A DNA stretch of 64,000 bases from NCBI RefSeq assembly GCF_022201045.2, contig NC_068563.1:29423001-29487000 (forward strand), read 5' to 3'. This document shows positions 16,446-44,478 of this stretch, piece by piece; positions within the stretch are counted from its first letter, which is position 1, and every line of letters starts with the position of its first letter. A program made the translations under genes and the position numbers. The notes under the pieces were generated by a model. It did not search any database. It was not told where the DNA came from and saw nothing but the letters and a program-made list of their open reading frames with translations. This DNA comes from Citrus sinensis. Lineage: Eukaryota > Streptophyta > Magnoliopsida > Sapindales > Rutaceae.

Positions 16446-19400
16446 ATGGCTAGGCTTCGTTCTCTATGGTTATGGCATGCTTTCTCAATGATGCTTGTAG
16501 GTTCAATTGGCATTGCGTGTGGAGCAGACAATGAAGATAGAAAGGCAAGTTAGCTGTGGCGGATTATTTTTACCGGGGTTAAATTTCATAACAATAAGAT
16601 GTGAAAAATTGAAATTTTATAGATTAATGAGTTTCTAAAAGTTTTTTTAACATATTTAATGAGGTCTAAATTAAATAACACTAAAACCATCATGGACTTT
16701 AACTTTTATAATTTTTGAAGGTAAAATTTAAACTTCATGAGATTATCAATTTAGAATGACTATCTTTATAGATCTAACAGGGCTGTGTTTAATAGATTTA
16801 AGGAAAACTAATTAAAAACTCTTAAGTAATTTTCTTTTTTATTTTTAAAATTTGTTTTCCTAATCATAGTTTTCATTTTGTGACACCATTATATTACTCT
16901 ACATCTCGATACAGTAATGAGTATGTGGTTTTTTTCCCCCCTTGTGACCTTAATGCATTCATATATTTATTTAGAGGTAACTGGAATTGATGCAGGTTTG
17001 CATCGTGTACATGGGATCGCTTCCTGCTGGTGAGTATTCACCTTTGGCTCACCATCTCAGTGTTCTTCAAGAAGGCATTCAGGACAGGTAATGTTTCTTA
17101 AGTGTAAGTATAGTTTTCAGCATGAAGCAATTTAAATTATTTTTGGTTTTACCTGTTGTTTCTCAAATTTGGATGTCTCTCTGTCCCCAGTTTGGCGAAT
17201 GATGTTTTGGTTAGAAGCTACGAGAGGAGTTTTAATGGATTTGCAGCCAAGCTTACTGATGAAGAACAAAACAGGATTTCTCGTAAGTCCTTATGTACAG
17301 TGGCGGCGCGGCTTGAGAGCTAGCTAGAGCTTCAGCCCCTGCTTGATTTGAAAAAAAAAAAAAGATTAAATTCATTTTATTTTTTAAGGGATTTATAATA
17401 CATCTCCTGTCAAATTTTAAAAATAATTAAATACCAACGTTTTTAGACAGCATTTTAAAATCTAAAGAAGAAAAAAAAAGGTCACAGAAATCAAATCTCT
17501 TACTTCTCACTGATCCTTTTGCCAAAAAAAAAAAAAATGTTGGCTACCATCAACACGTCGTATATGAATTTTGTGAAAAATTATCTTTGAAATCGAATGA
17601 AGGATTAATGGTTGAATTATAACCTTATTGTATACAGAGAAAAAGATATATTTTGTAATCTTAATAATAAGATTATTCTTCAACATTTTCAACATACGAA
17701 ACTACGTCAAGAACAATTATAAGTACATTAAATTAAATATTTTAATAAATTTTATTTTGAGATATGTTATTAGTTGATCATTTTCTTAAATTAAATTAAT
17801 GTTTGAACTTAGCGCCTGCTAAAAATGATTCCCGGCACCGCCACTGCTTATGAAACCATCTTTTTGATATGATTGGTGACATCAAAGCAACTGTCAAGTT
17901 TGATTTGGCTCAGGGATCTTAACATATTTTAACACCAAATTTTTTTTATTTGCAGGCATGGATGGGATTGTGTCAGTGTTTCCAAGTAAAACTCTTCAGC
18001 TTCAGACCACCAGGTCATGGGATTTCATGGGTTTCCCGGAGACTGTTAAACGAGAACCAACTGTTGAGAGTGATATGATAATTGGGGTTCTCGACAATGG
18101 AATCTGGCCAGAATCAGATATGTTTGACGATAAGAGCTTTGGTCCTCCTCCCAAGAAATGGAAAGGCGGTGCCTGCAAAGGCGGACAAAATTTCACTTGC
18201 AACAAGTAAGTTTCATCTCTCACTCCGTTGTGGCTCTTTCAGTGTATTACATACTTTTCAGGCTGATTAAAATTGATGCCCTTGCATCCAATACTACTTG
18301 AATTCACTCAAAAACATATGATATACATTGTGCAGCAAGATTATTGGAGCGCGATATTATTCAGGTATCAATACTACAAGGGAATATCAACTTGGTCATG
18401 GGACTCACATGGCTTCTATAGCAGCAGGGAATTTAGTTGTTGGTGCAAGCTTTGATGGACTAGCGAAAGGAAATGTGAGAGGAGCGGTTCCCTCTGCAAG
18501 AATCGCGGCATACAGAGTCTGTCATTATCCATGGCCATGCAACGAAGCTGATATCTTGGCAGCCTTTGATGATGCTATTGCTGACGGGGTTGATATTATT
18601 TTAACTGGAGCAACCTATGGTTTTGCATTCGATTTTGCAGAGGATGCTGTCGCAATTGGTGCTTTTCATGCAATGGAGAAAGGTATACTCACTGCTGTTC
18701 CCACAGGCAACATGGGTCCAAAACCAGCATCGACAGTTGTGGTTGCTCCATGGATACTTACTGTAGCTGGGAGCAGCATAGACCGCCCGTTTATTGACAA
18801 GGCTATTCTGGGGGATGGGACTACTTTGGTTGTATGTCGTGTTACTTCATTTCACTTACATGCAAAACTCTTCATTCCGCAAATCAGATTACTGAGAAAT
18901 ATGATTATCCACATCTTGGCTGCAGGGTGATGCTGTTAATCCTTTTACGATGAAAGGAAATAAATTTCCCTTATCCTATGGAAAGACCAATGCCAGTTAT
19001 CCGTGCTCTGAATTGGCTTCCAGGTTAATTCGCTTTCTTTTTAATTTGTCCAACCTAACTTCCCATGACCTGAAAAAACTGATGGTCTTGCTGATGCATC
19101 CAGGCAATGCTCACTATTTTGCTTGGACGAAAATCTAGTGAAGGGAAAGATCCTGCTATGTGATAATTTTAGAGGAGATGTAGAAGCTTTCAGAGTTGGT
19201 GCTCTTGGGTCAATCCAACCAGCATCTACTCTAATGTCGCATCCAACTCCATTTCCGACAGTCATATTAAAGATGGAGGACTTTGAAAGGGTCAAGCTTT
19301 ACATAAACTCCACAGAGTAAGGCCTTATGCTACCTCTTGTTGTCTATTACTGATGTAGTATACAACAGTGGCCTCCGTGTAATTATGTATGTCTCTTGTT

Positions 19401-20494
19401 CTCTTCATCACATCTTGAGCTTTCCTTCCAGAAAACCTCAAGTAAACATACTGAGAAGCATGGCTATAAAAGATGATGCCGCTCCTGTTGTGCATCCATT
19501 CTCTGGACGTGGGCCTAGTAAAATTACACCGGATATCATTAAGGTCTCCGTTCATCCTAGTAATCCATCCCTCTATCTCTTTTGTTGAGTTTCACAATGT
19601 CAAATATATTTCACCTGCATTCTCAATTACTGTTTTTGTGGATTACATTGCAGCCAGATATAAGTGCACCTGCAGTACAAATCTTAGCAGCATATACCGG
19701 TGGTTGGGGACCATCAAATCACCCTATGGATCACAGGTTTGTTAAATACAATATACTTAGTGGAACCTCAATTGCTAGTGCTTTTGCTGCTGGCGCTGCT
19801 GCTTATGTTAGAAGTTTCCACCCCGATTGGTCTCCTTCATCAATTAAATCCGCTCTAATGACCACTGGTAATCTTTTTGGGTTTCCTTAAAATCTTTTAG
19901 TAGTGTCTTCTTCTCTGCCTGATTCATTTTTCTTTCTTTGAGTTTATAGCTTTGCTAATGAATGGCACTGTAAATCGTGGCCGTGAATTTGATTATGGAT
20001 CCGGGCATATTGATCCTGTGAAGGCAACAAATCCTGGTTTAGTGTATGAAGTTCTTGAAGATGACTACATAAAAATGCTTTGTGGCATGGGTTACAGTGT
20101 AAATAAGATCAGACTTATTTCAGGAGACAATAGCAGTTGTCCAGAAGGCACTAGCATAGCAACCAAAGATCTTAATCTCCCATCAATGGCCGCTCAAGTC
20201 GAAGTACATAATCCTTTTAGTATCAAGTTCCTTAGAACAGTTACAAATGTTGGCCTAGCTAACACCACTTACAAAGCAGAAGTGAAAACTACTTCTATTG
20301 ACGTCAAGATCAATGTGACCCCTGATGCCCTATCCTTTGAATCCGTGAATGATAAGAAATCTTTTGTTGTGACCGTTGACGGAGCTATATTGCAGGCAAA
20401 TCACACAGTTTCATCATCACTTCTTTGGTCTGATGGAACTCATAATGTAAGAAGTCCAATTGTTGTGTACACAAACCAGGGTTTTGACTTCTGA
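16446..20494 (+). CDS. Cucumisin-like subtilase, array copy 1
   Basis: Ten exons: 16446-16544, 16996-17087, 17191-17282, 17956-18205, 18336-18831, 18926-19023, 19104-19316, 19432-19543, 19654-19867, 19950-20494; 736 aa. It is a secreted S8 serine protease of the SBT4/cucumisin type. Exon 1 is nearly all signal peptide. Exons 2-3 carry the I9 propeptide (V-Y-M-G-S-L-P to F-N-G-F-A-A-K-L). Asp is in G-V-L-D-N-G-I-W, His in G-H-G-T-H-M-A-S, and the oxyanion Asn in T-G-N-M-G-P. The PA insert lies in exons 6-7, Ser is in G-T-S-I-A-S, and an fn3-like C-terminus follows. The region after the catalytic Ser is unusual: S-A-F-A instead of C-P-H-A. The intron 1 donor is GC (AG|GCAAGT). Intron 3 is swollen by a 549-bp hAT-type element. 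Intact by frame, but the most diverged copy. Confidence 0.88.
17298..17846. mobile_element. Non-autonomous hAT-type DNA element in intron 3 of subtilase copy 1
   Basis: The element is 549 bp. It begins CAGTGGCGGCGCGG and ends with CCGGCACCGCCACTG, giving imperfect terminal inverted repeats of about 15 bp with CAGTGGCGG perfect. It is flanked by near-identical 8-bp target duplications, CTTATGTA at 17290-17297 and CTTATGAA at 17847-17854. The CAGTGGCGG end and 8-bp duplication are typical of hAT elements. No transposase frame is present, so it is a MITE-like derivative. It explains why this intron is 673 bp while the same intron is about 90-105 bp in the sister copies. Confidence 0.85.
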
Positions 20495-42980: not shown

Positions 42981-44478
42981 GTTAGTATCCTAAAAGAAAA
43001 TTTTGATGTGTATATTTGCCAATTAGACTGGGTTAACGCAGAGACGAGAGACTGTGAAACTGAAACGTACCACAATTGTCTTTCCATTTCCAAGAACAAC
43101 CTTGTCTACAAACAGACGATCAGTGGTACTTGCTGCCACAGACATCAACCATGGAGCTATGCTAGAGGTAAAGCCTGCTTTAGGACCGTTATTGCCAGCA
43201 GAATTTACTGTCAGTATTCCTTTTGTCATCGCGTGAAAAGCACCAATTGCAATGACATCATGTGCCAAGTCCACTGCTGATGTATCTCCTAATGATATTG
43301 TTATGATGTCAACACCATCAGCAATAGCATCATCGAAAGCGGCCAATATTTTTTCCCCCTCACACCCTGCTGGGTAACAGACTCTATATGCAGAAATTCT
43401 AGCAGAAGGAACCCCTCCTCTTGCCATGCCTTGTCCTATTCCTAAGAAACTAGCATCCTTCACTTTGTTTCCAGCAGCCGTTGAGGCAGTGTTGGATCCA
43501 TGACCCTCTTCATCAATAGCACTACCATTTCCATCGTCTCTAAAAGAGTAATATCGAGCTCCAATTATTTTGCTACGAAATGATAAATATATATTAGTCA
43601 GAAAATCTCAGCCTTCTATGGCTAAACATAATAACAAATACAATCTCTCAAAGGATAAGAAAAGACCATTACTTGTTGCAAGTGAAATTTTTGCCACCAT
43701 CACAAGCACCTTTCCACTTCTTGGGAGCAGGACCAAAACCTTCATCACTAAAACTCTCTGATTGAGGCCAGATTCCAGTGTCTATTACACCTACTATAAG
43801 ATCACTCTCAACAGTTCGTCTTTGAGTAATAGATTCGTTGAAACCCATAAAATCCCAAGATCTTGTTGTATGAAGCTGGAGGGTTCTACTTGGAAATACT
43901 GAGACCACTCCTTTCATGCCTGCATATCACAGTTGCAATATAAACGCTTCCAATTTAAAAACAATCACAATATGTGCATAATGAATCACAGAACTTACCA
44001 GCCAACTTTTGAATCTCATGATCAGTGAGCTTGGCAGCAAATCCATTGAAACTCCTCTTATAACTTCTAACCAATATATTTTCGGCAGAGCTGCACGTAC
44101 ATCACAGGAAGTGAGAGTGTTTGAAATAAGAATTAAACAAATATTTGAATTAATCCGCAGGATTTAATACTACCTGCCCTCAACAACTTCTTCCAAAATG
44201 CTTTGATGGTGTGATGATGGTAAATACTCCCCCTCAGGAAGTGACCCCATGTAGACAATATAGACCTTCACCAATAAAAAATAGCAATTCATATAAAAGG
44301 AAGAAAGTGATCGTCATATAGATTCCTTAATCATCCAAAAATGGGGAGCAACTAATTGATGAAGAACCAATGCAATACTTGCCTCTCTATCCTCATTATT
44401 GGCACCCCACAATAGGCTTGTGTTGAGGTAAAGAATGAAGGACAAGCACTGAAAGAAAATGAACCGATTCTTAGCCAT

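Follow-up and report, generated by a model that had tools for sequence, protein, structure and literature searches.

The first intron of the subtilase genes described here is very probably an ordinary U2-type GC–AG intron, whose GC donor was gained once, at an early date, and returned to GT once, in the common ancestor of copies 3 and 4. This reading is built on the observed donor letters, reading frames, gene tree and pairing energies. The genes form a tandem array of six copies, four on the plus strand (copies 1–4) and two on the minus strand (copies 5 and 6), in a 64-kb window (the whole stretch of DNA that was analysed). The exons of the window copies were reconstructed by comparison with copy 1. 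In the models listed below, the vertical bar marks the splice junction.

Copy 1, 16446..20494, plus strand: ten exons, open model of 736 amino acids; intron 1 at 16545-16995, donor AAG|GCAAGT, acceptor GATGCAG|GTT.
Copy 2, 21632..24746, plus strand: open model of 740 amino acids; intron 1 at 21731-21820 (90 nt), weak GC donor GAG|GCAATA.
Copy 3, 26690..29829, plus strand: open model of 735 amino acids; intron 1 at 26789-26965, donor AAG|GTAAGT.
Copy 4, 31061..34193, plus strand: open model of 727 amino acids; intron 1 at 31157-31332, donor AAG|GTAAAT.
Copy 5, 35387..38550, minus strand: open model of 724 amino acids; intron 1 at 38451-38320, donor AAG|GCAAGC.
Copy 6, 39835..44478, minus strand: pseudogene; intron 1 at 44382-44266, donor GAG|GCAAGT, acceptor GGTGAAG.

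The open models of copies 1–5 span 724–740 amino acids and have their catalytic motifs; D-H-N-S motifs were found in all seven open gene models, namely these five and two genes of a second array on contig C5. Pfam domains I9, S8 and fn3_6 were identified in the two of the six window copies that were checked (copies 1 and 4), and an N-terminal signal peptide is present as judged by eye. On the strength of these matches the window genes are cucumisin-like secreted subtilases, which we take to be of the SBT4 type. The best solved relative of copy 4 is cucumisin (PDB entry 3vta, E = 9.5e-195). Compared with cucumisin and plant SBT4-type subtilases, copy 4 has the same domains and nothing notable differs, while in copy 1 the serine motif is divergent (GTSIAS) and a PA match is lacking at an E value of 0.001. 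The dN/dS values (0.28–0.41 for six pairs among the open genes) fit working proteins. Downstream of copy 2, at about 25406-26100, there is a weak, broken subtilase-like stretch with 35% identity to residues 291-339 of copy 1, which is probably the relic of one more copy.

The first-pass annotation had read GC donors at intron 1 in copies 1, 2, 5 and 6 and GT donors in copies 3 and 4, and had pointed to a rare donor class at four of six sites on both strands. All of these readings are correct, and the flanking exon bases it had given (16544/16996, 21730/21821, 26788/26966, 31156/31333, 38452/38319 and 44383/44265) are exact in all six copies. The intron ends in AG and lies between codons in every window copy; its position and phase are identical in the GC and GT copies, and the frame is preserved across the join. 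The same in-frame join had been claimed throughout, and it is present in all six copies, but the sequence V-Y-I-V-Y-(M/I)-G given for it is found in only four, copies 1 and 5 reading V-C-I-V-Y-M-G. A GC start, an AG end and an intact frame occur together in four of the six window copies and in two copies on C5 (C5:11926k and C5:11896k); in a third, C5:11916k, the GC donor is present and the acceptor is broken. The intron itself is mostly too diverged for alignment (39–61% identity in pairs with more than 60 aligned columns), the exceptions being copies 3 and 4 (81%) and C5:11896k and C5:11916k (95%).

GC–AG introns are reported to account for about 1.2% of introns in plants (PMC6310983) and 1.45% of the 5'UTR introns of sweet orange (PMC7247714). 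The chance that a nine-intron family holds some GC intron is about one in ten (9 × 1.2%), and the motif AGGCAAGT alone is not rare, with three occurrences in the window against 2.22 expected. The remaining readable donors of the eight genes in the clade are GT in 61 of 61 cases; this count excludes introns 6, 7 and 9 of copy 6, and the outcome was the same with or without a GC penalty in the gene-model score. A general bias of these genes toward GC donors is ruled out by the absence of GC from all 61. The GC excess at intron 1 is real, and is best read as one inherited site rather than four independent events.

Relatives elsewhere in the genome were found by loose searches with the exon 2–3 region, an exon-2 pattern and the exon-4 region. 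Exon 2–4 matches gave at least 13 SBT4-like loci (six in the window, four on C5, two on C4 and one on C3), and the intron-1 donor was readable in 11 of the 13 found, as GC in seven and GT in four. The GC loci lie on two contigs, with four of the six window copies and all three readable C5 copies, each of the latter carrying AAG|GCAAGT. Two of these, C5:11926k and C5:11896k, have open full-length models. GT was read at C4:348k and C3:6706k, the two GT outgroup loci, whose exon 1 was assigned from position and hydrophobicity. Exons 1 and 2 of C5:11910k were not found in the stretch examined, and exon 1 of C4:359k was not found within about 1.7 kb upstream.

Donor strength was estimated from U1 pairing. 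The GC donors gave −5.9 (copy 1), −3.1 (copy 2), −4.8 (copy 5) and −7.9 kcal/mol (copy 6), with −7.8 kcal/mol for each of the three C5 copies, and the GT donors of intron 1 gave −12.5 (copy 3, full pairing) and −6.8 kcal/mol (copy 4). For the 61 other GT donors the median was −5.3 kcal/mol, with a 10–90% range of −8.3 to −3.0 kcal/mol. Six of the seven GC donors have the near-consensus form (A/G)AG|GCAAG(T/C), the exception being GAG|GCAATA in copy 2, and all but that of copy 2 are of ordinary strength by this crude measure. With the other donor positions still near consensus (AAG|GCAAGT), U1 would continue to pair and GC would be tolerated. We infer that splicing takes place at the GC donors and that it is efficient and unregulated; intron 1 would probably be a constitutive intron whose excision links the signal-peptide and propeptide exons no differently than in a GT copy. 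Copy 2 might be less cleanly spliced.

It had been proposed that attachment of the signal peptide to the protease is under the control of the GC donor. The weaker donor would then govern the joining, and copies 3 and 4 would have lost that control on regaining GT. We consider this improbable. GC donors have been statistically associated with alternative splicing, rice and Arabidopsis included (PMC1769492), and intron 10 of let-2 in C. elegans is described as needing its GC donor for regulated exon choice, which replacement by GT abolishes (PMC7242645, PMC2490688). Copy 2 also speaks for a switch, with three upstream in-frame GT sites in its signal-peptide exon (−5.2, −4.3 and −4.7 kcal/mol) that beat its own weak GC donor. 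Against it, the pairing energies of the six near-consensus GC donors fall among those of the 61 GT donors. A scan for alternative in-frame donors with a threshold of −4 kcal/mol returned none in copies 3, 4 and 5 and C5:11916k, and those present in copies 1 and 6, C5:11926k and C5:11896k are weaker than the GC donor of the same copy. No in-frame GT donor with better U1 pairing than the copy's own GC donor was found in copies 1, 5 and 6 or the three C5 copies, which leaves the claimed control over signal-peptide joining without visible parts of a switch in these six copies. GT sites out of frame that reach −5 kcal/mol or beyond occur 23 bases before the donor in copies 4, 5 and 6 and 32 bases before it in the C5 copies, that of copy 5 slightly beating its GC donor (−5.0 versus −4.8 kcal/mol). 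Were intron 1 retained, translation would terminate ahead of exon 2 in all nine of the nine copies read (worked out from read-through for the three on C5), and copy 6 is a pseudogene. A switch at every GC copy was rejected on the in-frame scan, in which copy 2 alone has better sites. The argument that the donor class is rare enough to imply regulation is not supported either: SYMRK intron 12 has been published with a pattern of this kind, and mammalian GT/GC conversions number in the hundreds.

We regard as similarly doubtful a graded version, in which donor class tunes the output of secreted protease, the GT copies (above all copy 3) being strong, most GC copies near-normal and copy 2 producing two signal-peptide forms. 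The case appears to be an ordinary one: the letters and history first described are right, and the mechanism claimed for them finds no support in the sequence.

The history of the donor was read from a main tree of exons 2–10 of eight genes (copy 6 without exons 6, 7 and 9), with exons 2–5 of C4:348k as the outgroup. In this tree, copies 1 and 2 pair as sister to all other copies, among which the pair of copies 5 and 6 is sister to a group joining copies 3 and 4 with C5:11926k and C5:11896k. Support is 98/98 for copies 3 and 4 and 97/97 for their union with the C5 pair, and is lower, at 79/83, for copies 5 and 6. A constraint placing the six GC genes on one side of a branch was rejected (p-AU = 0.003). 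In trees of exons 2–5 from eleven loci (C3:6706k without exon 4; C5:11916k, absent from the main tree, by exons 3 and 4 only), copies 3 and 4 again fall within the GC clade, but their pairing is left open, so that their description as sister copies stands on exons 2–10 and not on exons 2–5. The tree agrees with the earlier suggestion that a GC donor was retained through duplication and GT restored in one sub-clade, and the C5 array carries GC too. Since the GT pair is nested in a GC clade, two changes are enough, an old gain of GC and a single reversion to GT. The one gain would predate the split between the window and C5 arrays, and the reversion would be a C-to-T mutation that took place before copies 3 and 4 parted; for the root of the clade we infer that GC was gained from GT.

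A shade less probable than a regulated switch is a history in which the ancestor carried GT and GC was gained independently in copies 1 and 2, in copies 5 and 6 and in the C5 array. GT at both outgroup loci favours it, but on the main tree it needs at least three gains, against one gain and one return. Parsimony on mammalian donors is reported to give 298 GT-to-GC and 40 GC-to-GT changes (PMC3488318, PMC2490688), with 122,621 GT and 253 GC invariant sites (PMC2490688), and the per-site rates from these counts favour the return (about 0.14 versus 0.002). Four independent GC gains were rejected on the main tree. Least probable of all is that the GC sites are not donors, being sequence errors or having the true exon 1 elsewhere, given that seven copies share them across two contigs and both strands, and that the aligned GT copies have their base position and phase; sequencing error as the source of GC was rejected on the same spread over seven copies and two contigs.

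Two of the GC copies are damaged. From its exons copy 6 is a pseudogene: a repeat insert in exon 9 is followed by a TAA stop in the same exon, and the intron-5 acceptor is displaced by one base. A second in-frame ATG for this copy lies at 44532. The repeat interrupting exon 9 was located at 40 genomic places, itself included, among the best 40 scored of 119 candidates. Copy 6 contains this repeat twice, in opposite orientation, at about 40705-41493 (the interruption of exon 9) and 42273-42980 (intron 5); the two are 75–86% complementary depending on the stretch. The GHGTH/GHGSH motif has become GHGTN in copy 2 (22563-23070) and GHGSN in copy 6 (43572-43071), with loss of the second histidine; the first is presumably the catalytic one, as in subtilisin. 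By its exon and acceptor sequences C5:11916k is likewise a pseudogene that retains its GC donor: the intron-1 acceptor reads GATGCAAG, where the near-twin C5:11896k has GATGCAG|G, and the exon-5 model hits stops.

For annotation, the signal-peptide exon of several of these proteases would be lost or wrongly placed by gene predictors that accept GT donors only. Exon 2 starts with G too, so a transcript aligner could log the junction as CA–GG, a form of recording described for rice (PMC6310983). The array also offers a tidy series of paralogues for comparing a single intron with a GC and with a GT donor.

No paper treating subtilases and GC donors together was found in the open-licence PMC literature among the matches listed, and the available sections of a grapevine subtilase study make no mention of donor class (PMC5122586). 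In human and mouse, GC introns are reported to be over-represented at the first intron position (PMC7242645). Intron 10 of let-2 and the subtilase intron 1 are both U2-type introns with a GC donor; unlike in let-2 as described, we found in the subtilases neither a competing exon nor an in-frame donor that pairs better, the upstream GT sites of copy 2 excepted. Vertebrate GT/GC conversions run in both directions, as here, but the published accounts are genome-wide, across mammals and other vertebrates, and do not concern a plant gene array. SYMRK intron 12 is the nearest published precedent, and a close one. It concerns an internal intron compared among orthologues across species, whereas the present case involves the first intron of paralogues in one genome. 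As in the window genes, GC is shared by the relatives of the gene and GT occurs in a few: the GC donor is reported to be common in dicots, with GT in Glycine max SYMRK-beta and Pisum sativum SYM19, and the GC form in Parasponia andersonii is spliced at 99.9% (PMC10668435).
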